From Stropharia rugosoannulata (taxonomy: Eukaryota; Basidiomycota; Agaricomycetes; Agaricales; Strophariaceae): a stretch of DNA of 64,000 nucleotides. The stretch is taken from the NCBI GenBank assembly GCA_028532985.1, contig JANCIK010000009.1, positions 1 to 64,000 of the forward strand. The letters run 5' to 3'. The notes beneath the pieces were generated by a model, which was not told the DNA's origin, ran no database searches, and saw only the letters and a program-made list of their open reading frames with translations. Positions 5,874 to 55,814 of this stretch are shown here, piece by piece (the first letter of the stretch is position 1; each line of letters opens with the position of its first letter). Position numbers and translations under genes: made by a program.

Positions 5874-8800
5874 TTAACGCACCACTTCATTACGCAAATA
5901 GCGCAACATTTGCTGTTTCTTCTCCTGCTGACCTTTGAAATTGGCTATGACAGGAATAATGGCACGAAAACGGGATTCAGCATAAGCAATAATTTCCTGC
6001 AAGTGTCAGCGTTGAGGGTGCGCAGTCAGAGACTGCTCGGTCGCTGGGTTGTAAATATGAACCACTTCGGTCATTTCTGCTGAGAGGGGGAAGTGATGGT
6101 AACAGGATAAGAAAGATAGCGATCACTAGTATGCAATTGTTCTACAAATACATTATTCACATGACATTATATCATTTATCGGCGAATCATAATCAGTGGA
6201 TGCATTCGAGAAGCTTTGATCGGCTTTGTCAGCCATTGAAAACCAGTCTCGGTGCTTTCTTTCGGCGTACCCTCGAGCGCCGAAACTCATATTGGCAAAC
6301 GCAGATATGGCATTTGCCCAGAACATTTGCCTGTGTAAGAAATACTTCACTGTCCATTGCATTTCATATCGAATGAATATGCATTCCTCTCTCCATCTAT
6401 CATGATTTGCTCTGGCTCGAAGCCAGTGAATCCTCTTGACTGTGAAGTAAATGAAATTGTCAATACTGAATCCAATAATAAAAAACACGGCATACATTCC
6501 AGGGCCGTGTTTTCATTTTCTACTTCTTCTTCATGGACACTTATACCCGCCATGATACGCCGACTGACGGAATGCCAAATCCAAGATAGTGTGAGTTTTG
6601 TTGACCCCCTTTGATTTGGTTGCAATATTGCTGTGCTGCACCGTACATCGGCCTTGGTGAGTTCTTTGTAAATGGCAAGCGCGTCATTCTCAGTAGCGCC
6701 GAGAACAATGAGACGGTCTCTTGTCCACGCATACATCTGACATAGGTGTGATATGCGGTGATTCAAGTCCACTATGATAGCTCTGGCTCGGGTCCTTACA
6801 CCTTTGCGAGGTGCAGTTCTGATTTGATCAGTGTACCTGAACGATTTCTCGGCGATCAGTTCACGAACTTGACAAAGATAGTGGTGCGCTCGTTTGCACC
6901 GCATGGCTAATTCAGCCTCCCTGTGCGTATCAGAGACATTATGATACGATGGTAGGAGCAATAGCATATGTTCTGGTGGAATATCGTCTTCATCGTCATT
7001 TAGCGTTACATTGGCGCTTGCCAATGCAGCTTGGCCTTCCTTCGTAGTTCGGTCAATCCTCACCGACCGTCGGAGGCGATCGAAAGGCAAGGTATTATTA
7101 CCACTTTCGTTGGGTGGAGCTGCGCTAGATGTGCTGCTTTCTGTGTCCAACGTATCCCAGCAGGAGAGATCCACCTGTGTGCTGCATGGAGTCGGTAAAT
7201 CTCGGCACTCGGCCGAAGTGAGCACAACAATGCCGAGTTGCTGTTGTACCTGTGCTAGTGCATTTAACTAAGTCAACAGTGATTCCCTAGCTTTTTGAAT
7301 GGATTCTAGTGAAGCATCATGTTTATCCTTAAGATATCGGCGAATGCTGAACCGAATGGAAAATCTGTGAATCCACTGCCGAGAAAATACACAATTAGGC
7401 GCACAAAGCAGATATATGTAAATGATTACTGACTGTTGCTCTTCCACTTTAAACGTTTGATCTAACCATAGCTCGACAGGTGTAGGGACATAGCTCGGTT
7501 CCCATTGAAAATCTTGTTCGTTACCCTTGTCGATTTGTGCTGCGTAGATGTCCATGGCCGGAAGATGAACTCGTCAGCGGAGCTCGGCGGTCTCAATCAT
7601 TTCGGTCCACTCGGCGATTGTGCTTGCAGGAACGCTGTGTGATAAATTTTGGAAATACTCCAATGCCTTTGAAAACTCTGATTTTGCGAAATGGTGTCGG
7701 CGAACAAGGGAGTCAACAATACCCAAGCATTTTTTATGGTTGCTATCATTGCAGTGGTCATCCAGTACTTCTACACGATGAGCTAATGTTGCGGTCCGAA
7801 CAGTCGGCGAAATTGAATTCAGTGTTGACCACATTGATTCCAGAATTTCCCCTGCTGTAATGCCTGCTCCAGGAATGAAGGATGTGGCATAACGGAAGAA
7901 GCATTCGTCTTTGTGCGCATGCACGTGGAATAAGCCGATGGCAGCATCAATGGTTAGAGAGGTTGGAAGTTTGTACCCTATATGGTCCCTGAGGTGTACG
8001 ATATATTGACAGGCAATGTCATAGATAAGAAGTAATCCTTGGTCAGGATCAACCTTTGTGGTCTCGAGAGCCTTGAGAAGCGCAAAATCAACGTTCTTTT
8101 GTTGTTCGCCCTTGAACATGTCTACCAGACTGTTTGGTGCATAGCATCCATGACGAGAGCAAGCAAAGGCTATTTTACCAGTTCGATCACAGGCTGATGA
8201 CGCCAATAATGCTGTCATTATGGCACGAAAAGAGTTCTCGCAAGGCGCTTTCTATGAAGCATCGAGAAAGATATCATAGTTTCGGCATTCGGCGTTCGAA
8301 GTAATTGTCGGTGGATGGCATTGCATTCCTTAGCGCCATCAAAGTCATCAACACAAAGCACTCACCGTATTCATTTCAATAGCCTTGTCCAAAAAGGCTT
8401 CATACTCAGAGTCTTTGGGATCCATGAGTCCACCTTCTGACAGCCAAATATCTGTTGCAGAACGATCATTGCAGACATGGTCGGCTTTGAAATTTCCGTC
8501 AACAACAAAGATTCGCCGATACACAAAACTGTAAGATGTACATACATATGTGTTATATATAATATTGTGCGAGCAAGTATGACAGGCGTCACTCACCTGT
8601 CTTGCGGTAGTTTAGCCTTCCAATCTCGGGGTAAGTTGACCCCAGGTGTTGGACAGGCTGGACAAAATATACACAACTCGCCCGCCGAGACTTGCATGGG
8701 GTTTGTGTCGTTGTGAGCAAAACCATTCCATTTGAGCTTTTTCAGCCAGCGCCAGATCCGAGTCATTCGGCGAAAGAGATTATAAACATTGGCCACCGCC

Positions 8801-10103
8801 GAAGGTGACATCGGCATAGTTATGCGGCGCAGTAGCATGAAGAATTAATATGCCGATGCCTTGAGCTCAAGGTTGCATAGCCTGTAGTGATCAAGTACTT
8901 GCGTTGTGAAGATGGTGCGCACTTTGACGAAGCTACCAGGCAACATCCTATGTGCAATAATGTCATATACCCTCTCATCAGTAGCACTACTGCGACATCC
9001 ACAAGAAACCAGAGCAAGACGATGAAGGCCATTGGTGTGAATGATGCGAACATAGGAATTCAACAAGACATCAGTTGTAGGAACAATACCATCGAGCTCC
9101 TCTTGACTGAGGTACCTTGGTAGCTCAGAAAGTTCGCTGTCCAGCTCGTCCTCATCAACAGCTGCATTTTCATCATTAAACCAGGAGGAAACTGCTTCAG
9201 TTTGTGATTCAGGGTTATCGCCAGGAATACCAGCGCCGACCGCCGATGCAAACGCGGGACCATACACTTCGTCGTCAATGTCAACATCAGCATTCATAGT
9301 GGATGTCGGTGCAGTGTATCTTTTGGACCTGAAGGTGTTGCTTGAACCAGACTCTTGGCAGGCTTCTTGTTCTGCTTCATCCTTCCTAAGTTGAAACACT
9401 TCCAACCTGGCAACCTGACTTTGCAGTTCGGCGCACATTCAAGGGTACTGTCTGTGTTTGACAAGCAAATAGCAACCCGCTTGCCATAAATCGGCCCTCT
9501 CGAAATAGGAGTTGTTCCATCGCTCAACGCGGTGAAAAGGATTTGACATATGAGTGTGACGAAGACAGCCACGGCAGACAAGGTCTGCATCAGTGCAATC
9601 TCGGCATTGCCACAACGCAATCCTGGAGGCCGGACAGGTAGGACAAGTGCGTGGCCCATTGCCCAATCCCTCACGTTCAAGAAGTGCCTCCAGGATGGGT
9701 TTAGCGTGCTTAACATACTCCTCCATGTAATCAGTGTTTTTCTTTTACAATGTTGGTTGATCAGTATACAGCGATCACGTTACACAGAGGAATATACCTT
9801 TTTCTGGGCCGAGGGCCGATATGAGTCGTCACCGCCGATGTCGTCTATAGTCATCTCGAAATCCGGAACACATTCAACAGTCACAGACTTTGGTTTTTCT
9901 TGTGATTGTGGTTGCGCAGGACGATCTGCTAGGCGCTCATGAACAGGATTTATCCTCGTTTCCACATCCTTTTCAACGCCGTTCAGATATACTGTTTTGT
10001 TTCAAATCAGTACCGTCGGCTGTAGGCTGGGATGGTCGATATTTTTTGCACTGCCTTTTCTCTGAGGCTTCTTCCTCTTTGCTTTCTCACCGGTTGAGTC
10101 CAT
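5874..10103 (-). CDS. KDZ (Kyakuja-Dileera-Zisupton) transposase with CxC2 cysteine cluster, multi-exon
   Basis: The gene starts at the ATG at 10103 (exon 10103-10014, intron 10013-9969, exon 9968-9798, then from about 9720) and ends at the TAA at 5874, in more than ten exons. The CxC2 cluster is encoded near 9650-9520: CPTC, CRDC, CRGC then LRHTH. Next come the typical block VHTNGLHRLALV, then the RNase H-fold core: FVVDGNFKADH (first Asp, near 8500), LLIYDIACQY (second Asp, near 8020), and the block with KDECFFRYATSF and AGEILESMWS (Glu, near 7850). The C-terminal helical region with VHWLRARANHDRW is near 6440. One in-frame TAG at 7268-7270 interrupts an otherwise continuous frame (SLLT before it, LNALAQVQQQ after); CAG to TAG would explain it. 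The enzyme should cut and paste the element at its inverted repeats. Family assignment is firm; individual introns and whether it is active are not. Confidence 0.9.
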
Positions 10104-13837: not shown

Positions 13838-15676
13838 CCTGTTAGCCGAAGTTTTTTTTTATTTGACACGTGCAGCATTTGTCATATCTCGGCTCCCGGC
13901 ATTGAGGCAATTGAGCAAGGCAGCATCATGTAATTCCGGCGGACTGCGCCACAAGCCGATGTTTAATATCACATGCGTGTTGTGGATACTTATTTGCACC
14001 TCGCCACGTGATAATGTTGACATCTGCACTTTCGGCCCACGGCGCTGCAACATCTTCACTCCTCTCTTTTCCCTCGCGTATTCCCACTCTCCGCTCCCAT
14101 TCAACCACAGCCGATCACCCATCATGTCCGCCCACCAGAGTGAATTAACTCTTGAAGAGTTTGTCACCGTCATGGACCATCTGGATGCGATCTTTCGGCA
14201 GAGCATGCGCGACCGGAACTTGGACGAGGTGCTTCAGGCAAACGGGGCCAAAATTGTGAGCTGTCAACGTAAGCATGCTGCTATTCCTGTACATTTAACA
14301 CATTTTGCAGGCAAGACTTCTTCAAGAACCGGTTGGGAAAACCGTCAAATGGGGCCGATGGTCATTTCCCTCCCTCCATAAGCGCTATCGGGAGGTCATT
14401 CGCCAGACCACGCAGAAGCAGCGTGCGAGTGCCCTTAGCACATTCTACGCCGAGCCCTGTGCGCAACGCAGAGGCTAGCAGTTCCACAGCTATCGAGCGA
14501 AGGGTACCCACCCCCACCCCTGCCCTGCCCCTCAGATGCGCATTATCCACACTGCGCAAACCATTTATGTTACACCGCCCAGAACACATGGGAGAAGCAT
14601 TGCTGTTGCAGAACGTGTTCCAGAGCCAAGCACCGACATCTCGCCTGAAGCTGGAACGGTCCCAAGTCCAAGGCCGATTGCCGAATCCCGCCAGCAGGCC
14701 CAACTTGCATCAGGACAGCATAGGCTGGAGAGCCCTGCAGAACAGCCCACTGCACCTCTCCCTGGCAGTGGACATCGCACTCCGGAACATCCGCAAGTGC
14801 AAGAGCACACGGTCGCAAGAATGAGCGATTTTGTAAGACAGCCTGCGCAACCAGCGCCGAGCGCCGAGCCCAGCACCAGGCCCTTCACAGCTGCTGAGAA
14901 AGGCAAGGCCCGTGATCTTGGGTCAAGAGCACTGAGCGCCATGCCCAGCACCGGGCCCTTCACAGCTGCTGTGAAAGGCAAGGCCCGTGATCTTGGGTCG
15001 GTTGAAGCTGAGGGTTGGGGTTCGGCCGACTCACCGCAGAATTCGATTCCGGCCCCCCAGTCATCATCCATTGGTGAGTAAAATACCTTAGTTGTAATAA
15101 CATCCGCTTAATCAATCCTTTTTCTACATAAGAAAAAGGATTGCAAACTTTCCTTATCACGCTGGACAACCGCATGCGCGAAGTGGAGAAACAAGTTGCA
15201 TATGTGTACGGACAGCAGATGTATACACACGGTGTAGCAACGCAACAGATCGAAAAAGTGTTCAAGCAGTTCCGCGCAAGGGCATCGGGGCTGGACGAGG
15301 TCATTGCGCAGCATGAAGACCTGCGACGTAATCAGGAAGCCTCGACCGCCGAACGGCTTGCTGTCATCGAGGCGGCGCTCGGCATTCGCCAGAAGTCAAC
15401 GACTGTAAGCGCCGGCAACAGCAGCGCATCATCAGACCCGCTCAGTCCGGACGAGCATGTTCAGCAAGCCCGGCGCACCGCGGATAAAATCATACAGTCC
15501 GCCGAACGCCGAGCCCAAGCGATTTCTGATGCTGCGTACGCCCAGGCGTGCAGTATTTTGTCCGCTGCGAACTCATATGCGCAAATCGTGCACGGTGAAC
15601 ACCCTGACCCCGAGAATGTAGACAGGATGATGGCTGAGGTAGCCCAGACGCAGGAGCTTCGGCGAAGGATGGTCGA

Positions 15677-16641
15677 TGTGAGGGGCTGGGGCTGGCCCCT
15701 CGTGAAAACATGAAAAACCATAAGGTTCAGAACATAGATACACAAGAAGCGACATATCCACCATAACGATCGAAAACTACTATCGGAAACTGAAGGAACA
15801 AGAAGAAGCACGAAATATGAACTCTAAGATATGAAGATGCAAGTTTATTCGAAGATATGAAATATGTACATGATGAAACAAGAAGACAAGCACAAGGAAG
15901 ACTCAAGATGTTATTACAACTCAATGGCAGATCAAGAAAGATAACAGCATCAGAGCAATATTGGACTTCTGATGCCGACAACATCAGATCAATATTAACA
16001 ATCTGATGTAACTATGGACCCACAAGGGAGTCAATCACATGGAAATACTCGTACATACGACATGGGACAAATATGGCAACGGATTCCGACGATATGCAGG
16101 GGTTTCCGACGACATGCAAGCGTGTGGTAGCAGAAAGCAGAAGTATCTCGATACAAACACAAGGGACATAGGTGTGGAAAGAGGGTCGGAGGAGATGTGT
16201 GTTTAGGGGGGAACATGGAGTTGATCCGGTCGCAGGAAGATCTCTTGTGCTTGGGCTTGGTTTCCGAAGATAAGGATATTTGTGGCCAAGATATGAAGCA
16301 TGCTGTAGTGCAGCATGGTTTCCGACGAGATAAAGTCAGCATGGGCGGTCGGATCTTCGTGGATGGATATGGTACGATCTGGGCATGGCAACCAGACGGG
16401 TATTTAAGGAGTAGAATATCTCTGTACTTCTGCAGCTTCCTTCAGGGTTAAATTCTACCTACACACACCATACCAGTTCGCATCGGAAACCGTTGTTTAA
16501 ACCTCGTACACTGGAAGCTCCTTGTTTTGAAACAAGTAAAACCTTTTCAACGTGCTATCGTTGTACACACGTTGCCTTCGCACATTGTGAACTTTAGAGA
16601 CAGGCTTTTCAGACCAGTCCAACCCAACTTCGCACCTCACA
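15677..16641 (+). repeat. 5' LTR of gypsy-1
   Basis: 965 bp, begins TGTGAGGGGC and ends CTCACA, with short inverted ends TGTGAGG/CCTCACA. It matches 26244-27208 except for about two substitutions near 15761 and 15770. A TATA-like TATTTAAGG at about 16400 is a candidate promoter core. It carries six TTCCGA/TCGGAA words. Confidence 0.95.
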
Positions 16642-16644
16642 ACG

Positions 16645-16662
16645 TGGAGCCCACCGCGAGGG
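16645..16662 (+). promoter_or_regulatory. Primer-binding site of gypsy-1
   Basis: TGGAGCCCACCGCGAGGG, three bases after the 5' LTR, starts with TGG, the complement of a tRNA CCA end. The same 18 nt follow the 5' LTR of gypsy-2, so both prime from the same tRNA. I did not identify the tRNA. Confidence 0.85.
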
Positions 16663-16831
16663 TCTACAGTTCACAATAGATCCGTCTGTTCCAGACCGTC
16701 GGATAACTCGTCAACTTGCTGCAGAATTTGCTATACCCCTACAACCTCCTGAAGCACCCATCAAGAGAAGAAGGAAAAGACCGACACCGTCAGGAAGCCA
16801 AATATCTTCAGTACTCAGCCATATATCGGAA

Positions 16832-18784
16832 ATGGATCACGGAATCGAAGCAAACCCTTTTGAAGTTCAAACCGTGGCGCCCAAAGTCAAGCCTTACCCA
16901 AATCGCAACTCAAAAGATGCTCCATCGTTTACAGGACCCACTACTCCTTTACATCGATACCTAGAGGACATCGAGGAATTATGCAAAGACAGGGGAGACA
17001 CATCGGATATCACACGGATTACAAAAACCCTGTGGTATGTGGATTACCGATACCACGAAACATGGAAGAATATTCTAGATGAAAACAAATCCTGGAAGGA
17101 GAATAAACAAATATTACTGGAATATTTCCCTGGGTTGGATTCGCTCTACAAATACTCAGTCTACGATCTGCATAAATTAATACAGAAGTTTTCGAGCAAA
17201 CCCATGGATAATCAAGAACTTCTAGCAGAATATCATTGTGAATTCATGATTATAGCTACTTATCTGGAGAAGGAGCAATTATCATCAAGAGACGACATCA
17301 ACAGAAACTATGTTCTAGGTCTTCCAAAAGAATTCAGGGCGAAGGTTCTTACTCAATTAACGGCTGAAGACCCGAAGCGGAAACCGGGCCTGGTTCATGA
17401 TTATCTTCAAGTTAATCGAGCGGCTCGATATGTTCTTCAAGATAACGCTTATTCTGACAGGTATGGCCTTGAAGACACACCTCGTGAACGGACGAAAACC
17501 GAAGAAACTGCTCTTGAGCTCATGCTAAGGAAAATGACATCGGAATTAGGATCAATAAAGATGTTTATGCAAGGCCAACCTAATACATCTTTTCCGACGC
17601 AAGAAAGACCTATGTATCGTTCCACTCCGCGCTACGCCCCTGGTTGCTTGTTTTGCGGAGACATTAATCATATTATGAGGTCTTGCAACTTGCCGGATGA
17701 ATTTATAAACAAGGGAATCATCAAACAAGGGCCGAATGGTAGATTCACAATGGCTAACGGCGACTGGATCAATGGAACTGGAACAATAAAAGAAAGGATT
17801 GAAAACATCCTCAAACTGCAACGTGCTCGAGATGTACCCCCTCACCTGTCGCCAGCTACCACGATGATGTTTTCCTGTACTACGGCTGAAACCTTGTTTA
17901 ATTCTTCCAGTAAACTCGAAGAAGTCGACGAAGAAATCGGTGAGGTTTATCTGAAGACAAGGTCTTCGCCCCAAGACAAACCTGGACCAGGCAAAAACTC
18001 ATCTGCTTATGAAAAAGTCCCTGAAGTCGTGATTGCCGAAAGGAAATCGGAAAAGACAATACCAGAAGCACATGTAAGATTTGAACCGGCTAAAGGACCC
18101 CAGTACCGATTCACCTCAGGAGCGGAAAATCTGGATCTTCTTAAGAAAGTCATATCAAAATCTTTGGATGCAGAAATTACTATTTCTCAAAGAGAGTTGT
18201 TGGCTATTTCTGGAGAACTTCGGAAATATTTCAAGGAAACAACTACACCAAAGAGAATTCCGACGGTTAGCTATGTTCATGGCGAAGAAAATGAAGGGTC
18301 TTATGTGCTACAATTTGCTTCGGAAAATGGGCCATCGGATAGAGTCCTTTTGACGGCTTCTCCCCTTATGAAACTCAGGGTGATAAACTCGTTGCTAAAC
18401 GGTGAATTCACGGCGGAATGTGTCTTGGACCAAGGATCGGAAATCATGGCAATGGACAAGCGCATATGGAGAAAACTGTCTCACAATATAAACCCAGAAA
18501 GGAAAATATATATGGAGTCTGCCAACACGGAATTATCGCAAACGGATGGAATGTGCGAAAACCTTAAAATCACTATTGGAAGCCTTGAACTCTATTTTCA
18601 AGTACATGTCGTGGATAAAGCCCCTTTTCAAGTTCTGATAGGACGACCGTTCTTTGTGTATACTGGATGCACTACTAGGGATTATACAAATGGCGACCAG
18701 GAAATTACTTTGACTTGCCCCAACACGCAAAAAGTGGTTACTATTCCAACTCAGCCCAGGAACAAGGTTTCGAAAAAGAGTTAG
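16832..18784 (+). CDS. gag: Gypsy-1 Gag with zinc knuckle and aspartic protease
   Basis: 650 codons from the first ATG. The N-terminal half is the capsid-like helical region. A CCHC zinc knuckle CLFCGDINHIMRSC (CX2CX4HX4C) starts near residue 272. The C-terminal part is a retroviral-type aspartic protease: CVLDQGSEIMAM with the catalytic Asp near residue 533 (DQGS in place of the usual DSG/DTG), followed downstream by the flap and the VLIGRPF motif. Protease thus lies at the end of the Gag frame. The same frame is open upstream of the ATG through the primer-binding site (see findings), so the true N-terminus may be longer by at least 60 residues. The gag frame ends at TAG 18782, before pol. 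Confidence 0.92.
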   Translation: MDHGIEANPFEVQTVAPKVKPYPNRNSKDAPSFTGPTTPLHRYLEDIEELCKDRGDTSDITRITKTLWYVDYRYHETWKNILDENKSWKENKQILLEYFPGLDSLYKYSVYDLHKLIQKFSSKPMDNQELLAEYHCEFMIIATYLEKEQLSSRDDINRNYVLGLPKEFRAKVLTQLTAEDPKRKPGLVHDYLQVNRAARYVLQDNAYSDRYGLEDTPRERTKTEETALELMLRKMTSELGSIKMFMQGQPNTSFPTQERPMYRSTPRYAPGCLFCGDINHIMRSCNLPDEFINKGIIKQGPNGRFTMANGDWINGTGTIKERIENILKLQRARDVPPHLSPATTMMFSCTTAETLFNSSSKLEEVDEEIGEVYLKTRSSPQDKPGPGKNSSAYEKVPEVVIAERKSEKTIPEAHVRFEPAKGPQYRFTSGAENLDLLKKVISKSLDAEITISQRELLAISGELRKYFKETTTPKRIPTVSYVHGEENEGSYVLQFASENGPSDRVLLTASPLMKLRVINSLLNGEFTAECVLDQGSEIMAMDKRIWRKLSHNINPERKIYMESANTELSQTDGMCENLKITIGSLELYFQVHVVDKAPFQVLIGRPFFVYTGCTTRDYTNGDQEITLTCPNTQKVVTIPTQPRNKVSKKS

Positions 18785-19093
18785 CGGATTTTCCAGAATC
18801 CCGACTGAATTAAAACGGTCGGGAAAGATGTTCATGTTAAATATAGTGCACAAGAAACGACATGAACAGCAAGAGAAGGATATTCCTTCAGCACTATCAT
18901 TTGGACGATTTATAACTCCCTTATTTGCGGCAAGAATAGATGATGAAAGAGGATCATCATACCATGAAATATACCCTACTAATTTTAATTTTGAAGTTTC
19001 GCTAGATTTATCGGCCAATGTTTACAGAAGACTTATGCTTACTCTTTTCAACAAAGAGCATTAATAATAAAAGCCAGGAAGAAATATAAACCT
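18785..19093 (+). other. Gag-pol junction of gypsy-1
   Basis: A plus-strand frame at 18828-19064 (MFMLNIVHKK to LFNKEH) corresponds in position to the pol N-terminus of gypsy-2, which starts MFAIKIGAHN. The pol frame itself is open here too (AYSFQQRALIIKARKKYKP runs into pol at 19094). A frameshift near 19000-19060, or a short deletion, would join them. Whether this is programmed or damage cannot be told from one copy. Confidence 0.5.
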
Positions 19094-22000
19094 GTGGCAA
19101 GACGGACGTTTCCTGTGTCAACTACACTTCCCGAAGAATATCGTGTTATTAGAAGAATTCCATCGGATCCTCTGGCTAATATGAAACCGTTACCTTTTAA
19201 AGTGGACCATATTGAACCAGGAATACGCTATACTAAAGAACGAATGGACGCCTGGAACATAAATGAAGATGGCTTCTTGACACCGGATGAAGCTCGTCTA
19301 GTTCAATGGATCATTAAAGAACATGAGATGGGATTCGCCTGGAATGAGATGGAGAAAGGTGCCTTCAGAGAAGACTATTTTGAACCTCTAAAGATACCCG
19401 TTGTACCACATGAACCATGGGCGGAAAAACCGATACCGATACCTCCAGGCATCGCTAAAGAAGTCACGAGAATTTTTCAAGATAAAGTCGCAAGCAAAGT
19501 ATATGAACCTTCTAGTTCACCTTATCGGTCCAGGATCTTATATGTGCCAAAGAAAAGCGGAGCAATACGGGTGGTGCATGACCTGAGAAGGTTGAATGCA
19601 GTAACCATAAAAGACTCAGCTCTACCGCCAGTTGTAGAACTTTATGCGGAATCTTTCGGTGGAAGAACTATCTATGCCATGTTTGATTTGTTCGTAGGAT
19701 TTGACCATCGGGTTCTTCATCAAGATTCAAGAGATTATACTACGTTCTCTTCGCCTATCGGAAACCTGAGATTGACCCGTCTACCACAAGGATTTACAAA
19801 TTCGGTTCAAGTACAACAGGGAGATGTGTCATTTATCTTGGAGCCTGAGATTCCTGAATTTACGGCACCTTTTGTGGACGATGTACCGGTCAAAGGACCA
19901 CGATCTTATTATCAAGATGAGAATGGGGTCTATGAAACGATTTCCGAAAACCCTGGTATCAGAAGATTTGTCTGGGAACACTTGAACAATGTACATCGCA
20001 TTATTCAAAGAATACAGCATGCTGGAGGAACCTTCAATGCCTCGAAATCCTTTTTGGCTGTGCCAAGAATTAATGTTGTTGGCCATATGTGCAGCATCCA
20101 AGGAAGGACGGTTGATGAGTCAAAAGTCAGAGTTATCAGGGATTGGAAACCTTGTGAAAACTTGACAGAAGTTCGTTCATTCTTGGGAACATTGGGTGTA
20201 ATGTGTATCTTTATTAAAGATTATGCAATGCATTCAAGACCGTTAACTGAACTAACAAAGAAGGACGTTGAATTCACATGGGGACAAAGAGAACAAGAAG
20301 CAATGGACAGTTTAAAGCGTCTCTTAATTCAGTCTCCAGCATTAACGGCATTGGACTATGAATCCGAAGGACAGATAATAATGGAGGTGGACTCAAGCAA
20401 CATAGCCGTGGGTTTTATTTTATCTCAGGTTAAAGAAGACGGAAAGGAACATCCTGCGCGGTTTGGTTCTATAACTTGGAACGAAAGAGAATCAAGATAC
20501 TCACAAGCCAAGATCGAGTTATATGGCCTATTTCGCAGCCTTAGAGCGTATCGGATATACCTGGTTGGAGTGGAAAACTTGATAGTCAGGACTGATGCGA
20601 GTTACCTCAAGGGAATGTTAAACAACCCCGATATACAACCTAATGCTACGATAAATCGCTGGATAGCCGCCATACTTTTGTTTGACTTCAAGCTAGAACA
20701 CGTCCCTGGAAAATCACATTCACCAGACGGTCTGTCAAGAAGGAGACGATCAGAATTAGATCCTCAAGAAGATTCCGAAGAAGAAGTAGAAGACTGGATC
20801 GACAGGGCATGCGGCTTCGGAATCTGGGTCTTAAACAAAAATGACGATCGGAAAGTCACTCACATGTCCATGGTACAGAAGAAAATACCAGGATCGTCAT
20901 TGTCTTACAAGGCTATGGTACTTATTGCAGCTAAATCGGTACCTCACCGTTCGGAAATTACTACAACGCTTAAATTACCGGTTTCCGACAGAGGGGCTGA
21001 CATGGATGAGGAATTAAAGAAGGTCAAAGAATTTCTAGGCGACCCCGAAAGACCCGCATGGATTCGCACAAGAAAGGAGTATGACCGCTTCCTCAAGAAA
21101 GTAAGGCAATTCTTCATACTGGACGGAAAGCTATGGAAAAGGTCCGATGATGGTGAACATAAACAAGTGGTACAACAAGAAGATAGGCTTCGGATACTTC
21201 AAGAAGTACATGATAACTTAGGACATAAGTCTTATTTCACTGTGTGGAATAGGCTCACGAAGCGTTTTTGGTGGCCTAACATCAGTAATGATCTTACGTG
21301 GTACTTGAAGACCTGCGATATATGTCAGCGACAGTCTAGGGTAAAGAACCTCATTCCGCCAACGGTAGCTCGTCCATTGTCGCTTTTTGTCAAGGTTCAC
21401 GCGGATACTTTCTTTATGCCCAAAGGAAAAGGGGGAAAACATCTCTGTCTTCATCTACGATGTTCACTTTCGGGAATGCCTGAAGCTCTGGCTGTAGCGT
21501 CGGAAAACCATACGGTTATAGGAGAATTTCTGTTGGATGTTATGTCGCGATGGGGAGCTATGGCTATTATCGTGACAGACAATGGTACACCTTGGGTTAA
21601 AGCCGTGAACTACTTGGCGGAAAAATATGGAATCTACCACATCAGAATTTCGGGATATAATTCGCAGGCAAACGGCTTGATTGAAAAACGACATCTCGAT
21701 GTTAGGGAAGCAATAGTCAAGACTTGTGAAGGCGACTTATCAATATGGCCATTAATTCTCCGATTTGTTTTATGGGCTGAACGTGTTACGGTACAAAAAT
21801 CAACAGGTTATACTCCCTACTATATCGCACACGGAGTGGAACCATTATTTCCATTTGACATTACAGAAGCGACTTTCATGTTTCCCGATCAAGTTGATAT
21901 GATTTCCGAAGAAGAGCTAATAGCACGAAGAGCTATAATGCTGCAGAAGCGACCGGAAGATCTTGAAAGGGTCAAGGACAAAGTGGAGAGAGCACGGCTG

Positions 22001-22363
22001 AGGCAAGCTCGTTATTTTGAGCAATACAATAAGCATCGCATCGTGTTACAGGATTTCGCACCAGGTACTTTGGTCCTAGTCAGAAATTCACCAGTTGAAA
22101 AATCACTTGATCGGAAAACAAAACCGCGATACTTTGGGCCTCTAATGGTGTTACGACGAACGAAAGGGGGGTCTTACATCTGCGCTGAACTCAGTGGAGC
22201 CGTATCCTACAAGAGATTCGCCGCATATCGCCTAATACCTTATATATCAAGAGAACCGCTTGAAATACCATGGGAACTATTGTCTCAACCCAAGGATCTA
22301 ATTGAAGGCATGGTACGCGAAGAGGTACCTGAGGACTCGCAAGTGGCGCCTGATGATGAATAA
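19094..22363 (+). CDS. pol: Gypsy-1 Pol: reverse transcriptase, RNase H, integrase
   Basis: 1089 codons from a GTG at 19094; no ATG is at that point and the frame is open further upstream, so the start is set by the Gag-Pol junction. The RT has DLRRLNAVT, FDLFVGFD and the catalytic FVDD (residues 260-263). RNase H begins at VDSSNIAVGF. Integrase has the HHCC zinc finger (first His near 706, ending CDIC) and the catalytic triad D771, D829 (VTDNG), E864 (IEKRH), the classic D-57-D-34-E spacing. A GPY/F-like C-terminal module (RYFGPLMVLRRTKGG) follows; no chromodomain is seen. The frame is intact, so this copy may be able to transpose. Confidence 0.93.
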   Translation: MARRTFPVSTTLPEEYRVIRRIPSDPLANMKPLPFKVDHIEPGIRYTKERMDAWNINEDGFLTPDEARLVQWIIKEHEMGFAWNEMEKGAFREDYFEPLKIPVVPHEPWAEKPIPIPPGIAKEVTRIFQDKVASKVYEPSSSPYRSRILYVPKKSGAIRVVHDLRRLNAVTIKDSALPPVVELYAESFGGRTIYAMFDLFVGFDHRVLHQDSRDYTTFSSPIGNLRLTRLPQGFTNSVQVQQGDVSFILEPEIPEFTAPFVDDVPVKGPRSYYQDENGVYETISENPGIRRFVWEHLNNVHRIIQRIQHAGGTFNASKSFLAVPRINVVGHMCSIQGRTVDESKVRVIRDWKPCENLTEVRSFLGTLGVMCIFIKDYAMHSRPLTELTKKDVEFTWGQREQEAMDSLKRLLIQSPALTALDYESEGQIIMEVDSSNIAVGFILSQVKEDGKEHPARFGSITWNERESRYSQAKIELYGLFRSLRAYRIYLVGVENLIVRTDASYLKGMLNNPDIQPNATINRWIAAILLFDFKLEHVPGKSHSPDGLSRRRRSELDPQEDSEEEVEDWIDRACGFGIWVLNKNDDRKVTHMSMVQKKIPGSSLSYKAMVLIAAKSVPHRSEITTTLKLPVSDRGADMDEELKKVKEFLGDPERPAWIRTRKEYDRFLKKVRQFFILDGKLWKRSDDGEHKQVVQQEDRLRILQEVHDNLGHKSYFTVWNRLTKRFWWPNISNDLTWYLKTCDICQRQSRVKNLIPPTVARPLSLFVKVHADTFFMPKGKGGKHLCLHLRCSLSGMPEALAVASENHTVIGEFLLDVMSRWGAMAIIVTDNGTPWVKAVNYLAEKYGIYHIRISGYNSQANGLIEKRHLDVREAIVKTCEGDLSIWPLILRFVLWAERVTVQKSTGYTPYYIAHGVEPLFPFDITEATFMFPDQVDMISEEELIARRAIMLQKRPEDLERVKDKVERARLRQARYFEQYNKHRIVLQDFAPGTLVLVRNSPVEKSLDRKTKPRYFGPLMVLRRTKGGSYICAELSGAVSYKRFAAYRLIPYISREPLEIPWELLSQPKDLIEGMVREEVPEDSQVAPDDE

Positions 22364-22552
22364 CAAGTTTCCGACAACGCTTACACAACCTATATTTCTT
22401 AATGGAGCTTCAACAGTTTCAAGTTCATTTCTTCTCATTTGTTAAATAAACTCTTTTTCTTTTAGGTTATGTTTCTGTTTTTACAAGATTATGAAATTAT
22501 TGCTTTCAAACTAAAATGTGCATGACCAAGACAATTTATTGACTACAAGATA

Positions 22553-23616
22553 CTATGACAATATGGTTTCCGACGAAGGGCGAAAGGAAATACGACAAGA
22601 AGAAATACATATAAATCCTTTTTTACCTCCTGCGGAATCTTTTACTTCCCCGGACATTCTACGGATCTCCTCGATACGCTCCATTGATAATTCCACCAGA
22701 TCGCGAAGCCGATTTTCCATGTCAGAATAATGTCGCAGGTTTCTTTCGCAAAGGTCGTCCAGCTCTTCAAGCCCATCTGTTGGGTTGGCAGTCGTTTGCC
22801 ATTCGCGGAAATCTCGCACCAACTGTGTATATGGTGCATACGAGGGTAAACCCTCAACAGGACCGCTAGAACTTGCGTTGGGACTAGAACGCGTAATACC
22901 TGTGCAACGAGGTTACCAAACCTGTTAAAGATAGGGAATTGTAATTACTCACCTGAAGTTCCCTCGCCAACATCTTTATGCTTTGCGACGATGGACTCCG
23001 TGTACTCGAAAACAGGCGTTGCCTCATAGTATGGAAGAGGGCCATCATCCTCAATTCGCATAGGGCTCGAAGGCGCGTTGTAGGGGGCTACTGCGTTGGC
23101 CGTGTCGTCTGCTTCAAGTTCGTCCACTTCTTCGACCTCGTTGTCCTGGCTGCTGTCGCTGTCGCCGTCGCTATCTTCTTCGGGCTCTGGGTGGACGGTA
23201 CGGGACCGTCGGTCGTATGAGAAGTCGCTGCCAGCTAAGGCACGAGTCAGGAAGTCGCCCGGGTGTTGTTTCTAAATTACGGATGAAGTTATCAGCATGA
23301 AAGCGACAGAATACAATTAACAGACACTTACACATTCGGCAGTATTATTGCTGCAATTCTTTTTGTCAACCTTGCAATTGGTACATGCCCTGCTCCAGCG
23401 AGGTGTGTAGCGCAAAGTACACATATAGCCGGGGTGACTTTGGCACCAAGAACACCGCTAGGTCAATGCTTTAGTATGGCTGTAACTCAGTATGGCATAT
23501 TTACTCACCTGGTCGTACTCATACCACCCTTCTGCAAGTCCAAGAATTTGTGGAGCGGACCAGCGCATATCGACTTCATACGTAGAGGCGGGACGAGCGG
23601 TGCGACGAGGAGGCAT
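22553..23616 (-). CDS. Antisense Zn2Cys6-like DNA-binding protein carried by gypsy-1, 299 aa
   Basis: Four exons with GT-AG introns join in one frame: 23616-23509, 23457-23332, 23271-22953, 22899-22553. Residues 38-71 hold six cysteines spaced CX2CX7CX11CX2CX6C (CSWC, GYMC, ACTNCKVDKKNC). This is close to the fungal binuclear zinc cluster CX2CX6CX5-12CX2CX6-8C, with one extra residue in the first loop and a basic second half. A strongly acidic linker (EPEEDSDGDSDSSQDNEVEE) follows, then a C-terminal region with a long amphipathic helix (ENRLRDLVELSMERIEEIRR) that could dimerise. That order, zinc cluster, linker, coiled coil, acidic part, is typical of fungal transcription factors. It runs opposite to gag-pol and its last exon ends 190 bp from the end of pol. 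Function as an element-specific DNA binder is inference. Confidence 0.7.
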
Positions 23617-24236
23617 GTCTTAAGCAGGTGATGAATGTGGGGGGGGAAGAATGGTGAAAGTATGAGTGGAATGGGCAGGCTTTTTATATTCTTCTGGGAC
23701 AGTGGTTCAGCACGCTTTCGGAAATCGGCTAGCTTTGAATGGGTCCGGCATCAGGCGTGGATGGCACTATGAAGAAACCGATAGAATGCTGTGGATTCTT
23801 CTCTATGACTCGGTCCTATATGTTGGACAATTGGCCTGCCTTTACAGGAACCGCGATAACTTCGACGCGAATCTTGTTCGGATTTTCTATTTTTAGGTCG
23901 GAAATCACCGTGGCTCATGTTCTGGAAAGCGGCGTTGCCTAATCAAGTATGACGGCGTGATGGCGTCGGGTTTATGGTGACGTGCCGTGCTGCTTTAGGG
24001 AATGGCGATACCTCTTTTGTCTGCCGTCCAGTTGTTGCTGCGGCATTGCTCTGGGCCGCCGCGGAATTTTCAACTGGCGTTTTCGGCTGTAATGGCGCAT
24101 GTGTAAGCTGGGCGGCTTGTTCAGTTTTACTTCGGCATCTTCCATTTTCATTCGGCATTTTTCGGCATCGTATGGCAGTGTCAAATTTGTGTGCGGAAAT
24201 CTATCATAAGGAGTTTACATCTATGGGCAGTTGTAT
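23617..24236. other. Spacer in the gypsy-1 accessory block
   Basis: No convincing gene. Two overlapping minus-strand frames at 23943-24184 are rich in Gln, Arg, Ala and lack recognisable features. The stretch probably holds the promoter of the zinc-cluster gene (start 23616) and the 3' end of the gene that stops at 24237. It has two TCGGAA words (near 23721 and 23899). Confidence 0.4.
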
Positions 24237-24747
24237 CTACGGCTGATTGGCTTGTTTCTCAATCCAGTCCCTCCATCTCTCTACTCCATCTATGGTGAAG
24301 TCAGTTTCGCACAAGTAGCAGTGGCGGAAACCTTGCGACTGCTTCTCAGCTGCTTTGAGTAGGCTCAATGCCTTATCCTGCTCGCTGTCTACAAGAACGG
24401 CCCCGTATTCGCTCATGACCCGGCGAAGCAAGAGTAGTGTCCACGATGACTGGGGTCGGAATTGTTTCGCGGATATATAATCTTCGAAATGGTCATTCTG
24501 TGCAGAATAGGGATTGTCAATTGGGTTTGATTTCAACGGGACAAGTGGGTCAACTTACAATGTAATGGCACAGGGCGGCAAGTGTCCGATGTGTTTCCAT
24601 CGCGTCTGTTGCGGAACGAGATAGCATTTGATCGGATATCAATTGGTCTATGGTAGGCCGAATGGCATGCTCTAGGACCTGCATGATGTCCGCTGGATTC
24701 TTCACAGCTGTGGTCAATAATGTGGTGAATCGCGTGGTGGTGCTCAT
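24237..24747 (-). CDS. Antisense accessory protein of gypsy-1, 149 aa
   Basis: Two exons, 24747-24559 and 24497-24237, join in frame across a 61-bp GT-AG intron. The start is the ATG at 24747 (MSTTTRF). The protein is mostly helical, with a C-terminal CYLC motif (FRHCYLCETDF) that may bind a metal with nearby His/Cys. No family recognised. It is the second gene in a run of minus-strand genes between pol and the 3' LTR. Confidence 0.6.
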
Positions 24748-24890
24748 TTCTGGTGTTTGGGCAGACTAGTTGCCTTCCCTTTTATACAGATTTCAGGCGC
24801 TGGGCTACTTGGCATTGGACGATCTGGACGCATGGATACATGTCACTTGTCTGGAGATTATCTAGCTAATTTCCGACAGCCGGTTGTTGG

Positions 24891-25379
24891 TTATGGGTCG
24901 CCTACTCCGCACACACATGCCTGTTGATACTGGAAGAAAACGTCGTCCATGCGCTCCTTGATTTCGGGAATCTCGTGCCCGGTGTATCCAAATGTCATCG
25001 TCATGTATCGCATACGCATTAACACCCTCAATTCGGCCATGGTGATTTGCTCGTTGGGCGATTGATGTATGCCTACATGTTGACGACCATGCCATGCTAT
25101 ATACTATGATAGTGTTAGGGCGGCACGTCCCCTGAAGACGTTACTTACTGCTATGGTTTGTCCTAGGAACAAGAAGGACCGGAGATCGGTTATGACAGGC
25201 TGCAAGTTGATGGTGTCAAGCTGGAGTATTCGTGTGTATTCATATTCTAGGGCTTCGACGAATGGATCAAGGCAATGTTTGAAGACATATGGGATCGGAA
25301 ATCGCGATCGGAAATCGTTTAGATCGGTGGGCAACTCAAGCACTAAAGATTGAAGATATAGACGTAAAGGCGCTTGCAT
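24891..25379 (-). CDS. Antisense accessory protein of gypsy-1, 147 aa
   Basis: Exons 25379-25149 and 25103-24891 join in frame across a 45-bp GT-AG intron. Starts MQAPLRLYLQ, ends QACVCGVGDP. Helical, with a LPTDLNDFRSRFPIPY segment; one CVC near the end. No family recognised. The gap to the next gene (24748-24890) is 143 bp and carries one TTCCGA word. Confidence 0.6.
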
Positions 25380-25417
25380 TGCGGGTGCTACGGAATAATC
25401 TACTAGAGCTCTACACT

Positions 25418-26157
25418 TTATATATCCATCTCTCGCACCGATGTTCGGAATCTAGCATGTGGACGCTGGGAGGGAACGGCCGTTTGAAGATGAAAGATCG
25501 CCGCTGGAATTTCTTCGATGTCTGATGTGTCTTCAGGTGTTGCGGCTGGCCTGAATGCTGGCAGGTGTTCTTCAAGGGTCTTCGGCTTTGACGCGGTTTG
25601 AAAACTGTAACCACCACCGACTGTTGCTGTCCAGGTCATTAAATTCTTTGAAGTCGACTTGGATTTCTTTGGTGGCATCGGCAGTGTCCTCAGCATATAG
25701 CGCCATGAACCGCAGTATGGTCGACCAATACTCAAACCCTTCATGTTCCTCCATCGGAAACATCTCCAGTAAATGCCTGGCACTGGCGCTTAGGTAGCGG
25801 CATTCAGGTGGAATCATACGCCGATTTCACGCTCATTTGACGGCCGCATGTTGACGCGCGAGCATAGCAATAAACGCTGCGCTATCATTAGCAGGGCTAG
25901 TTGTGAAGCGGTTCGAGGGCTTACCATGTGATCAAAATGATCATGAACGTGCGCTTCCACTTGCGCATGGTCGATTATGTTCAGTTCTCGTCGCTGCGAG
26001 TGCGGATGTCCTTGTAGATGGCGAGGCATAGGATTTCATGTTGGTGACGGATGGTCAACGCAAATTCACGCATGGTTGTTGGTACAACGAATGCATGGCT
26101 TCGGTTTCCTGGAGCAAAACAGAGCGAGCGAAATATTCTTTCTGCTGCGGGGTCCAT
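25418..26157 (-). pseudogene. Antisense accessory gene(s) of gypsy-1, frame-broken
   Basis: Coding-like segments lie in changing frames. First MDPAAERIFRSLCF to YKDIRTRS (26157-25985), then in another frame NIIDHAQVEAHVHDHFDHM (about 25985-25925) up to a good donor GTAAGC, then MIPPECRYLSASARHLL to DLDSNSRW (25817-25600), then in a third frame KTLEEHLPAFRP to VREMDI (about 25580-25418). Some changes may be introns but at least one frame change lacks a plausible intron, so I call the gene broken or unresolved. It may be one gene or two. It sits next to the 3' LTR, reading away from it, so the 3' LTR could supply antisense promoter activity. Confidence 0.5.
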
Positions 26158-26230
26158 GGTGCTTGATGGCGACGACGCTTTTGGCTGAAATTTATAGGTT
26201 TCCGACCACCCAGGAGGGTGGTGTTTTAAA

Positions 26231-26243
26231 AGTTGGGGGGAGA
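26231..26243 (+). promoter_or_regulatory. Polypurine tract of gypsy-1
   Basis: AGTTGGGGGGAGA immediately before the 3' LTR. The counterpart in gypsy-2 (minus strand, 48348-48336) reads AGTAGGGAGGAGA. It should prime plus-strand DNA synthesis. Confidence 0.75.
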
Positions 26244-27208
26244 TGTGAGGGGCTGGGGCTGGCCCCTCGTGAAAACATGAAAAACCATAAGGTTCAGAAC
26301 ATAGATACACAAGAAGCGACATATCCGCCATAACGATCGGAAACTACTATCGGAAACTGAAGGAACAAGAAGAAGCACGAAATATGAACTCTAAGATATG
26401 AAGATGCAAGTTTATTCGAAGATATGAAATATGTACATGATGAAACAAGAAGACAAGCACAAGGAAGACTCAAGATGTTATTACAACTCAATGGCAGATC
26501 AAGAAAGATAACAGCATCAGAGCAATATTGGACTTCTGATGCCGACAACATCAGATCAATATTAACAATCTGATGTAACTATGGACCCACAAGGGAGTCA
26601 ATCACATGGAAATACTCGTACATACGACATGGGACAAATATGGCAACGGATTCCGACGATATGCAGGGGTTTCCGACGACATGCAAGCGTGTGGTAGCAG
26701 AAAGCAGAAGTATCTCGATACAAACACAAGGGACATAGGTGTGGAAAGAGGGTCGGAGGAGATGTGTGTTTAGGGGGGAACATGGAGTTGATCCGGTCGC
26801 AGGAAGATCTCTTGTGCTTGGGCTTGGTTTCCGAAGATAAGGATATTTGTGGCCAAGATATGAAGCATGCTGTAGTGCAGCATGGTTTCCGACGAGATAA
26901 AGTCAGCATGGGCGGTCGGATCTTCGTGGATGGATATGGTACGATCTGGGCATGGCAACCAGACGGGTATTTAAGGAGTAGAATATCTCTGTACTTCTGC
27001 AGCTTCCTTCAGGGTTAAATTCTACCTACACACACCATACCAGTTCGCATCGGAAACCGTTGTTTAAACCTCGTACACTGGAAGCTCCTTGTTTTGAAAC
27101 AAGTAAAACCTTTTCAACGTGCTATCGTTGTACACACGTTGCCTTCGCACATTGTGAACTTTAGAGACAGGCTTTTCAGACCAGTCCAACCCAACTTCGC
27201 ACCTCACA
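26244..27208 (+). repeat. 3' LTR of gypsy-1
   Basis: 965 bp, same ends and length as 15677-16641. The target duplication TCGA follows at 27209-27212, after which the interrupted exon of the KDZ accessory gene resumes. Confidence 0.95.
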
Positions 27209-28194
27209 TCGAAAACCGTAAGTCTCATTTTATTTCGGCGGTGTTCCATCCTAACTATCGTTTTGCAGAAAATCTAACTTCTTCTGAACTGCTTCATTTG
27301 AAGCAGATCTACCAAGCAAACCCAGACTTTGACAGTCTGTTTGTCAACAGCGCAAAGACTTTGCGCCGCGATATGTACACCGCCGCCGCCCGCGACAGCA
27401 AGCTGCCCATATGGAAAGACATCAAGGAGATCAGGGCCCTCGAGGCAGAGCATGGGATAGCCAACAGTGTGGACGCTTCCATCGAAGACCTGCCGCCTGC
27501 GTCAACTGCTGACCAGATGGATGTGAGTGGCGATTCTGAAGTTGCTCAACAACCATCAGAAGCAGTGCAATCGCTGTCGGCTCTCGGCATTGGTGCATCG
27601 TCATCGGCGATCGAAACAACCAACCCGCCGGCCCAGCAAACACCCCTCCCCACAGCTGGGGCAAGCTCAGCAGCAGCGCTGCACCCTCAGACTCCTGAAA
27701 CGAGCCTGAGCCCGAGACAGACAGCCAACCTGTCATTCCCCCCATGGCGAGACTCGCAGGTAGTGGAAGATGGTGATGTTGACTTGGCCCTTGGCGGTCA
27801 GCGCTCAAGGTCCATCTTTGCACTCAGACGGCCTCTCAGTCCACTGACAGAAATGACATTGTCACCAGGTCCAGATGAGGACAAACAACAAGGTAACAAC
27901 GAAGAGGGCACACGAGAAGAAGTTCAAGGTGACCTAAATATGCTGGAGGACGATGAATCACGATCGCCGAAGGCCGACGTTTTGGAATGTGGCTCTGATG
28001 AAGATTGCGAGGAGGGAGAGGTAGTTGAAGACAAAAACCTGGGTACAGTTTGGAGAGAGTACAACCCAGAGGCAGAGGCATTGAGCAGCCGCTCGAGATC
28101 GAGGCAGAGGACAGCGCCGACAGCTTGTCCACCTCGACAACGCAATGTTTCCAATGCTTCCTCGGTTCGGCGTTCGGTGCGGCATCTGCCGTGA

Positions 28195-47409: not shown

Positions 47410-47716
47410 AGGGGCCTAGGGAAAAATGCGGGTTATGTGCGGGTTGTGCTTGTTTGTGCTGGTTAAGCGAGCCTCGCACATGCCAATGTGCTTGTTAAGC
47501 GAGAAATGTGCTTGTTAAGCGAGACGCGCACGCGCCTTTGTGCGGGTTGCGTGCTGGCTGATCAAGTACTTGTGCGGGTATGTGCTGGTCGCATGCGGGT
47601 TGTAAGCTGACTTGTGCGGGTCATGCACGGATTGTAGGTGTATTTCATGCGCCGGGAGTGTCATTGCATCTGCGGGCCGTGTATTCTCATGTGAGCCAAT
47701 TGCGATTGATGAGCGA
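47410..47716 (+). repeat. Left subterminal word array of the 2-kb element
   Basis: TGCGGGTT, TGTGCTTG and TGTGCTGG words recur from 47428 to 47640, with GTTAAGCGAG appearing three times (47460-47525). Likely transposase binding region. Confidence 0.65.
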
Positions 47717-48335
47717 TGATACGCCTACGAGTGCTCCACGTGCGGAATGGCGACGAGCAACAAACAAAAACGAAGGGGACACGTAGGGAACTCGTAGAAG
47801 GTGCGTAGGGGTGCGAGTGTGTTTCCAAAGGCTTCTAACCAACAGTTCTCGAGGGTAGACAAAGTTTCTCCACAGTGTAAGCTGCCAATCAGCTTCGAAC
47901 CACTTGGAGGCCGAAATACGACGAGGAACGAGTGCGAGACGAGGTAGAATAGTAGACGAGAAGTCCACGCTAGGACTGGGCGATAAAACGAATATTACTT
48001 GTTATTTTGTAGCTGAAAGTACATGTCTTTTATACTACAGATGTGAGTCATAATTGTAAGCAAAGAATTATCTAGAAAATTTGTAAAATGGAACGGATGA
48101 GTAAGGAAATGAGTAATCTACATATTTACAAAGTTTTAGAATGAAGGGGAACATTTTACGCAGTGAGGAACATAGATGATACAACCATATTCCGTGAGCT
48201 GTGCGCAAGCTGTGCGTGAAGCCGCGCCGGCCGCAAGTTTCCGGGTGATGCCGAGATATGCCGGGCGTGGGAAATGGACTTGTGCGCATCGCATTTTGTG
48301 CCGTTTTCGTGCGTGGAGCCGGCTACGGCTCATCA
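47717..48335 (-). repeat. 3' LTR of gypsy-2
   Basis: 619 bp, begins TGATGAGCCG and ends CGTATCA on the minus strand; reads the same as 55815-56433. The solo LTR at 10830-11318 is a diverged relative. Confidence 0.95.
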
Positions 48336-48551
48336 TCTCCTCCCTACTGAAATTCTGACTGTCCTCAGTCAGCCGTGGTCAATCAGCACGTCGTGTATGG
48401 TACCTGGACCGAGATATAAGAGAAACTAAATAATGAAATAAACTGAGTGGGGATGATATATAAAACAAAAATCATAGAATACTATGTGCAGTCAAATAAA
48501 ATGTCACCGTGAATGCAGAGGCGCTCCTCCCTACTGTAATATCGACTCCAA

Positions 48552-53207: not shown

Positions 53208-53236
53208 GTCTCCTAACGTTTCTAGATCCTCGACAT

Positions 53237-55495: not shown

Positions 55496-55793
55496 TGTAG
55501 GTGTCGAAAGTAATGATTCTTCGGATGAACTTGGGAATAGAGATAAAGCTGCTAGCTCTGCGTCGAGTGAAGAGGTTGATGAGGATGGGGAGTAGGATGG
55601 TAGATCAGATAGATTAAATTGAGGAGAGGTTGGTGTTGGTAAATTATTGTGTGTAGCTTCGATTTCAGGTGCTTCAATGAAGAATGAGTCGTCGCTGAGG
55701 TTTTCTGGGTTTTGAAAGGCTGCAATTAACTCGTCACGGAATGTGCGAGTGCGAAGGCGATTGTTGATTGAAGGCTCAATGTTGAATGAAACC

Positions 55794-55811
55794 CCCTCGC
55801 GGTGGGCTCCA
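55794..55811 (-). promoter_or_regulatory. Primer-binding site of gypsy-2
   Basis: On the minus strand TGGAGCCCACCGCGAGGG, three bases after the 5' LTR, identical to that of gypsy-1. Confidence 0.85.
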
Positions 55812-55814
55812 AAA

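Follow-up and report, generated by a model that had tools for sequence, protein, structure and literature searches.

A gypsy retrotransposon of Stropharia rugosoannulata with a dispersed, selectively kept word and an antisense gene exchanged as old allele classes

VANDAL DNA transposons of Arabidopsis encode the anti-silencing VANC proteins and, as described in the sections of the reports drawn on here, carry an element-specific short word at high density (PMC5735166, PMC10398659). The cases of transposon-encoded methylation loss named in the section used of the second report, i.e., VANC, TnpA, and MURA, all belong to plant DNA transposons, and escape from small-RNA-directed methylation is proposed there by the authors as the driver of VANDAL diversification (PMC10398659). 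Among plant gypsy elements, Retand, Grande, and RIRE2 have antisense ORFs between pol and the 3' LTR which, in the cited part of the description, contain a TRP28 domain and are proposed to be regulatory (PMC11963269). TET/JBP genes are found on fungal DNA transposons and Helitrons, and the excerpt cited proposes that they counter cytosine methylation (PMC12730594). Tcn1-like gypsy elements of fungi and plants possess an additional ORF, whose function is given as unknown in the section consulted (PMC2864245).

The element described in this study is a Ty3/gypsy LTR retrotransposon of 11.5 kb in the basidiomycete Stropharia rugosoannulata. It lies at 15677-27208 of the window, i.e., the 64,000-nucleotide stretch of DNA analysed here, which is the start of contig C9 in a genome of 48 Mb and 20 contigs; a telomere-like repeat (TTTAGGG) occupies positions 1-90 at the contig start. 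LTRs, a target site duplication, and the order of reverse transcriptase (RT), RNase H, and integrase in pol place the element in the Ty3/gypsy group. The LTR pair forms a 967-bp direct repeat, two flanking bases included, with 99.8% identity. In the Pfam search, DUF4100 in the gag-type frame and RT_RNaseH, RT_RNaseH_2, and Integrase_H2C2 in pol scored above the cut-off and RVT_1 scored below it, while the zinc knuckle and the protease-like region of gag were assigned by eye. The closest pol relative among the protein-collection matches listed is 74% identical, the named relatives among the 120 listed are from Agaricomycetes (Leucocoprinus, Rhodofomes, Pleurotus, and Candolleomyces) at approximately 48-51%, and a pol query against the IMG/VR viral contigs gave no match. 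The element is inserted within a KDZ DNA transposon (window 3424-28625; Pfam KDZ at 7574-8215, CxC2 at 8845-9438, 95-bp inverted ends), which is thereby split. Downstream of pol and inside the LTRs are three antisense genes, each preceded by a TATA box (Table 1). The splice sites of antisense genes are not read on the genomic RNA, so intron-bearing genes in this orientation could survive retrotransposition.

Table 1. Features of the gypsy element and their positions in the window
Feature	Position	Strand	Remarks
Target site duplication TCGA, 4 bp	15673-15676, partner 27209-27212		Both ends read
5' LTR	15677-16641	+	TGTGAGG...CCTCACA
TATTTAA of the 5' LTR	16401		LTR promoter
gag-type open frame	16642-18784	+	Zinc knuckle, protease-like region, DUF4100; start codon provisional
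pol open frame, 1122 aa	18995-22363	+	Reverse transcriptase, RNase H, integrase zinc domain
Gene 1, four exons	22556-23616	-	Exons 23616-23509, 23457-23332, 23271-22953, 22899-22556
Exon 2 of gene 1	23332-23457	-	Cys-rich
Putative promoter of gene 1	23683-23724	-	TATAAA at 23688; word at 23718 (30 bp upstream)
Gene 2, two exons, 149 aa	24240-24747	-	Exons 24747-24559, 24497-24240; TATAAA at 24786
Gene 3	24894-26157	-	Five coding blocks examined, splicing provisional; TATAAA at 26196
3' LTR	26244-27208	+	7.2 words per kb
Dispersed word TCGGAA(A)	15677-27208	both	42 TCGGAA sites; scarce in the coding part of gene 1

In so far as the cited sections describe the VANDAL system, the gypsy element resembles it in a dense element-specific word, an element-borne candidate reader gene (gene 1), and divergence within the system. 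By description it is set apart as a fungal LTR retrotransposon with an antisense gene and a Cys-rich protein. The VANC words are given there as noncoding repeats arranged in tandem, with changes that parallel those of the protein, whereas the words of the gypsy element are dispersed over coding and noncoding parts of both strands, and the word and the Cys-rich exon are constant while the rest of gene 1 is variable. For VANC, binding and demethylation are reported in those sections; the gene 1 protein is a candidate for such a role. With the antisense ORFs of the Retand type, as characterized in the cited part of that work, gene 1 shares its position, orientation, and putative DNA-binding product; however, the presence of three genes, the four exons of gene 1, the conserved word, and the exchanged allele classes are differences (PMC11963269), and the TRP28 domain (PF04195) had no Pfam match in gene 1, gene 2, or gene 3 (the last as joined blocks). 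The TET/JBP carriers are similar in that a fungal gene is transposon-borne, but their product, according to the excerpt, is an enzyme (PMC12730594). In literature searches on fungal LTR elements with antisense or zinc-cluster genes, and on hypervariable cassettes of retrotransposons, nothing like gene 1 appeared among the top-ranked titles and abstracts, in which few subscription journals were covered.

A sequence-only reading of the window had estimated that TCGGAA/TTCCGA occurs about 40 times in the element, and the count agrees: 42 sites are observed against 7.2 expected, and the corresponding numbers for TCGGAAA are 34 and 2.2. With only one LTR counted, 36 TCGGAA (6.8 expected) and 29 TCGGAAA (2.1 expected) remain, and TCGGAAA is the top-scoring 7-mer of the element. 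Inside the element lie 34 of the 38 TCGGAAA of the window, and a total of 38 was reached in none of 100 shuffles of the window. The TCGGAA sites are divided between the strands (24 and 18), and their density per kb is 6.2 and 7.2 in the LTRs, 3.7 in gag, 2.8 in pol, 3.5 in genes 2 and 3, and 0.9 in gene 1. The same reading had named a shuffle that preserves codons as a check, and codon usage is thereby ruled out as the cause of the word in gag and pol (2000 shuffles of each). In gag, 8 TCGGAA are present (shuffle mean 2.1, largest 8) and 6 TCGGAAA (mean 1.1, largest 5); in pol, 10 TCGGAA (mean 2.4, largest 8) and 8 TCGGAAA (mean 0.9, largest 4). Each TATA box of the antisense genes has a TCGGAA upstream, at a distance of 30 bp in gene 1, 85 bp in gene 2, and 4 bp in gene 3, and the LTR TATTTAA has TCGGAA 81, 139, 297, and 317 bp upstream; since, at the word density of the element, a word is expected within 100 bp of any point approximately 30% of the time, these TATA-proximal words are only weakly suggestive.

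The 10-mer GTCGGAAACC occurs 305 times in the genome, compared with 96 times for the reversed control, and many of the places listed coincide with the gypsy family as judged by eye only. The specificity of the word for the element was assessed in a few control elements in which no gene-1-like gene was found. The second gypsy element of the window (47716-56433, RT on the minus strand and 52% identical, identical 620-bp LTRs) is without enrichment, with 2 TCGGAA in 8.7 kb, and of the two loci with RT 60% identical (L034 and L035), one contains a single TCGGAA in 9.4 kb and the other has 2 in 6.9 kb. The words that are enriched in L035 belong to a tandem repeat lying outside the element. On contig C5, at approximately 694-722 kb, word and RT matches recur every 5.6 kb, a periodicity that points to truncated members of the gypsy family arranged in tandem. 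The KDZ transposon has a dense CGG-containing word of its own (TCGGCGA, 25 observed against 1.5 expected in 13.7 kb) and is thus the second element of the window to have a private word.

Gene 1 had been proposed as a four-exon gene opposite gag-pol and inside the LTRs, and this model is sound: GT-AG is found at all three introns in every one of the 24 copies that were aligned; L015, the remaining copy of the 25, is truncated and was left out. The gene is open to a shared C terminus in 18 of the 24 copies and truncated in 5; in the window copy the last codons are in another frame, which makes the tail of its 299-aa form atypical. The cysteine spacing CX2CX7CX11CX2CX6C given for the protein is present in exon 2, but two further invariant residues had been overlooked, i.e., a His and a seventh Cys that follows the sixth after six residues. 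The complete pattern is CX2CX2HX4CX11CX2CX6CX6C, and neither the seven Cys nor the His varies among 11 distinct sequences. The acidic segment is located in exon 3, where Asp and Glu account for 23-29 of 85 residues in seven representatives; this acidity is maintained although the dN of exon 3 is up to 0.6-0.7. The C-terminal helix holds as a prediction, with one 16-residue and one 49-residue helix in the model of exon 4 (mean pLDDT 87), and the long one may be suited to pairing.

Fungal Zn2Cys6 regulators have a Gal4-type spacing, with the consensus CX2CX6CX5-12CX2CX6-8C, and a preference for CGG. Gene 1 resembles them in the two CX2C halves, the lysines after one CX2C, the acidic region, and the long helix, and the word contains CGG. 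Membership in this family, which the sequence-only reading had implied by calling the protein Zn2Cys6-like, is not supported; the Zn_clus model (Pfam PF00172) scores 10.3 bits, whereas its cut-off is 21, and exon 2 departs from the consensus by X7 in place of X6, by the seventh Cys, and by the His, all of which are invariant. The Zn_clus alignment is partial and joins residues 23-42 of exon 2, its second half, to positions 1-20 of the model, and thus the half that aligns to the model start comes second. Judged by this arrangement, the two halves may be swapped relative to Gal4-type clusters, or the domain may instead be formed by two single-zinc sites, Cys-Cys-His-Cys and Cys4. Confidence in the AlphaFold2 model of exon 2 is low (mean pLDDT 52), exon 2 had no relative at E 10 among solved structures in a search by sequence, and the spliced protein matched no Pfam family at E 1. 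Two gene 1 queries against the protein collection returned nothing at E 1, in a search that finds only relatives with short exact words in common. Capture of several host genes as the source of gene 1 was rejected, because exons 1-2 and exon 4, used as protein queries against the same genome, match only loci of the gypsy family. The product of gene 1 is a Cys-rich, probably DNA-binding protein.

The main evolutionary feature of gene 1, which the sequence-only reading had not foreseen, is a set of old allele classes that are exchanged between copies. At least 25 copies with gene 1 were found (only the best candidates were scored), and the best-scored candidates include further loci with RT at least 90% identical but without a gene 1 match. 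Outside gene 1, segments of 200 bp are mostly 90-100% identical to the window copy where aligned, with a minimum of approximately 88%; in 22500-23700, the identity of copies from other classes drops to 53% at the lowest. By eye, the alleles fall into six well-separated classes: A; B, which includes the variant L022; C; D; one formed by L029, L031, and L032; and the mosaic L030. Between classes, dS is 0.31-2.8 in gene 1, where it is saturating, 0.02-0.10 in gag, and 0.06-0.13 in pol. The divergence profile peaks in gene 1 and falls on both sides; its rise in the 3' LTR comes from L027, which is without the 3' LTR end. L032 is without the 5' half of the element, and its gag and pol divergence values were ignored; L014 and L019 are also without part of the element. 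The gene 1 proteins of well-separated classes are 65-86% identical, and dN/dS between classes is 0.09-0.20, which shows that gene 1 is kept by purifying selection, with no sign of positive selection. The variation is greater at silent sites and in introns than in the protein, and selection for a different nucleotide sequence rather than for protein function would fit homology-dependent silencing.

Within classes, the p-distances of gene 1 (A, 0.002-0.008; B, 0.006-0.046; C, 0.020-0.032; D, 0.048) are close to those of pol (A, 0.001-0.007; B, 0.004-0.062; C, 0.012-0.021; D, 0.051). This similarity rules out a mutation hotspot in gene 1 and indicates that the gene is an old cassette that has been exchanged. 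L028 and L031 have a single difference in 17550-21949 and a single one in 25150-27149; across gene 1, they differ at 88/384, 151/354, and 74/395 positions, and 5-8% divergence is also observed in 23550-25149. These two copies lie next to each other in inverted orientation on contig C1 (gene 1 near 271 and 282 kb), and their flanks may alternatively have been converted later. The same pattern of gene 1 divergence, over a background of 0.3-2.5%, is found between L009 and L029, which are on different contigs. L029 itself is a mosaic allele, in which exon 1 and intron 1 are like class A (p 0.01 and 0.00, respectively) and the remainder is like L031. Taken as a whole, these comparisons show that the alleles of gene 1 form old, well-separated classes and have been exchanged between copies that resemble one another far more closely in the rest of the element.

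Conservation of the word and decay of CpG were analysed in 14 of the 25 copies; class A was omitted, as were five copies in which some parts were missing or did not align. The 33 word sites are intact in 0.908 of cases, compared with 0.718 for 666 CpG-matched hexamers that do not overlap a word, and the values with one copy per class are 0.933 and 0.765; the observed conservation was reached in none of 50,000 resamples. The first control set had contained word-overlapping hexamers, and the test was repeated with the 666-hexamer set; in the first test, some other hexamers were equally conserved, e.g., TCGGGA (7 sites, 0.949). Turnover of the word among the 14 copies consists of two sites lost in half of the copies and only two gains. 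CpG transitions amount to 8.2% in the element, approximately four times the 1.9-2.5% at other C contexts, which is consistent with methylation. The CpG within the word is kept in 0.936 of cases and CpGs elsewhere in 0.811, whereas those 1-10 bp from a word are not spared (0.789); the selected unit is thus the word itself and not its neighbourhood, and no trace of regional hypomethylation is seen around the words. Selection thus maintains TCGGAAA, a word dispersed over the element. Covariation of the zinc domain with the word, which had been suggested as a test, has no power in this family, since neither varies among the copies; with the word and the Cys-rich exon both nearly constant, the suggested tracking of the word by zinc-domain variants finds no support, and one DNA specificity common to all copies can be argued.

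Genes 2 and 3 are under purifying selection. For gene 2, pS is 0.087 and 0.163 and pN is 0.039 and 0.025 between class representatives, and the five blocks of gene 3, which a few copies have interrupted by a stop or a gap, have pS of 0.06-0.23 and pN of 0.01-0.04; neither gene has a Pfam match above the cut-off. Both are only moderately diverged between copies, though antisense like gene 1. Antisense ORFs with acidic stretches also follow pol in the loci with RT 60% identical (L034:4847-5552 and L035:2260-2955). They were rejected as relatives of genes 1-3, with a best BLAST match no better than E 0.13; accessory genes in antisense orientation may be frequent in this group.

We tentatively propose, with less than even confidence, that gene 1, the exchanged cassette, encodes a regulator that binds the word in every copy and that its sequence has diversified under homology-dependent silencing. 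The protein would be a nuclear regulator with a Cys-rich DNA-binding part, an acidic effector part, and a long helix for pairing; bound to the words of every copy, it may act against silencing by keeping promoters on or the chromatin in an open state. Being common to all copies, the word and the part that binds it would stay fixed, and the rest of gene 1, including silent sites and introns, would be favoured when different, most simply because the host silences by sequence identity. The gene 1 transcript runs opposite to the genomic RNA, with which it could form double-stranded RNA. Template switching between co-packaged RNAs is a property of LTR elements and would move the cassette onto successful backbones. 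In its strongest form, which is rather doubtful, the proposal describes a system resembling antigenic shift, in which an antisense regulator switches on the element via the element-wide word and ancient allele cassettes circulate as rare versions escape silencing, the reader part and the word remaining fixed. The evidence comes from one element family in one genome, with no second case that ties such a protein to this word.

The word may instead serve a host transcription factor, or the product of gene 2 or 3, as an activator site that has accumulated in the element, with the gene 1 protein acting otherwise, e.g., in export or packaging. Words upstream of every TATA box are what any activator site would give, and gene 1 has no direct link to the word, its Zn_clus score being below the cut-off; however, words at 2.8-3.7 per kb on both strands of gag, pol, and genes 2-3 exceed what promoters need, and the related gypsy element in the same window has hardly any, which leaves this explanation possible but somewhat doubtful. 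A self-repressor that binds the words for copy-number control, in the manner of phage immunity, should form immunity groups that differ in the DNA-reading part and the word, both of which are nearly constant, and the kept composition of the acidic segment suggests activation; we regard it as improbable, even though an antisense protein resembling a DNA-binding one, words close to the TATA boxes of gene 1 and of the LTR, and separate classes would agree with it. Coating of double-stranded cDNA or marking of resident copies by the gene 1 protein, which would aid nuclear import or steer integration, would suit words on both strands along the whole length but not a density that is highest in the LTRs, and is very improbable.

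For the allele classes, the main alternative to silencing escape is admixture of old lineages with recombination. Here rare types would have no advantage; long-separated lineages, from old subfamilies or other species, would have met in the host, and recombination and bursts would have homogenised all but a segment that was too diverged. The 14-35% difference between class proteins is comparable to that of pol between sources, for which the closest relative listed is the one given above, the dN/dS values show no positive selection, and the inverted arrangement of L028 and L031 permits conversion of their flanks. Admixture is nevertheless unlikely in our judgment, as the divergence peaks in a single gene and drops on either side, six well-separated classes share one backbone, and the breakpoints inside gene 1 of L029 mean that the segment does recombine. 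The moderate divergence of genes 2 and 3, which are likewise antisense, counts against silencing escape as a complete explanation.

The divergence pattern of gene 1 is itself a measured property of this family, and the explanation proposed for it can be tested in the host fungus. If the regulator proposal is true, the element would provide a tractable system for how elements escape silencing and a test case for balancing selection inside a transposon family.
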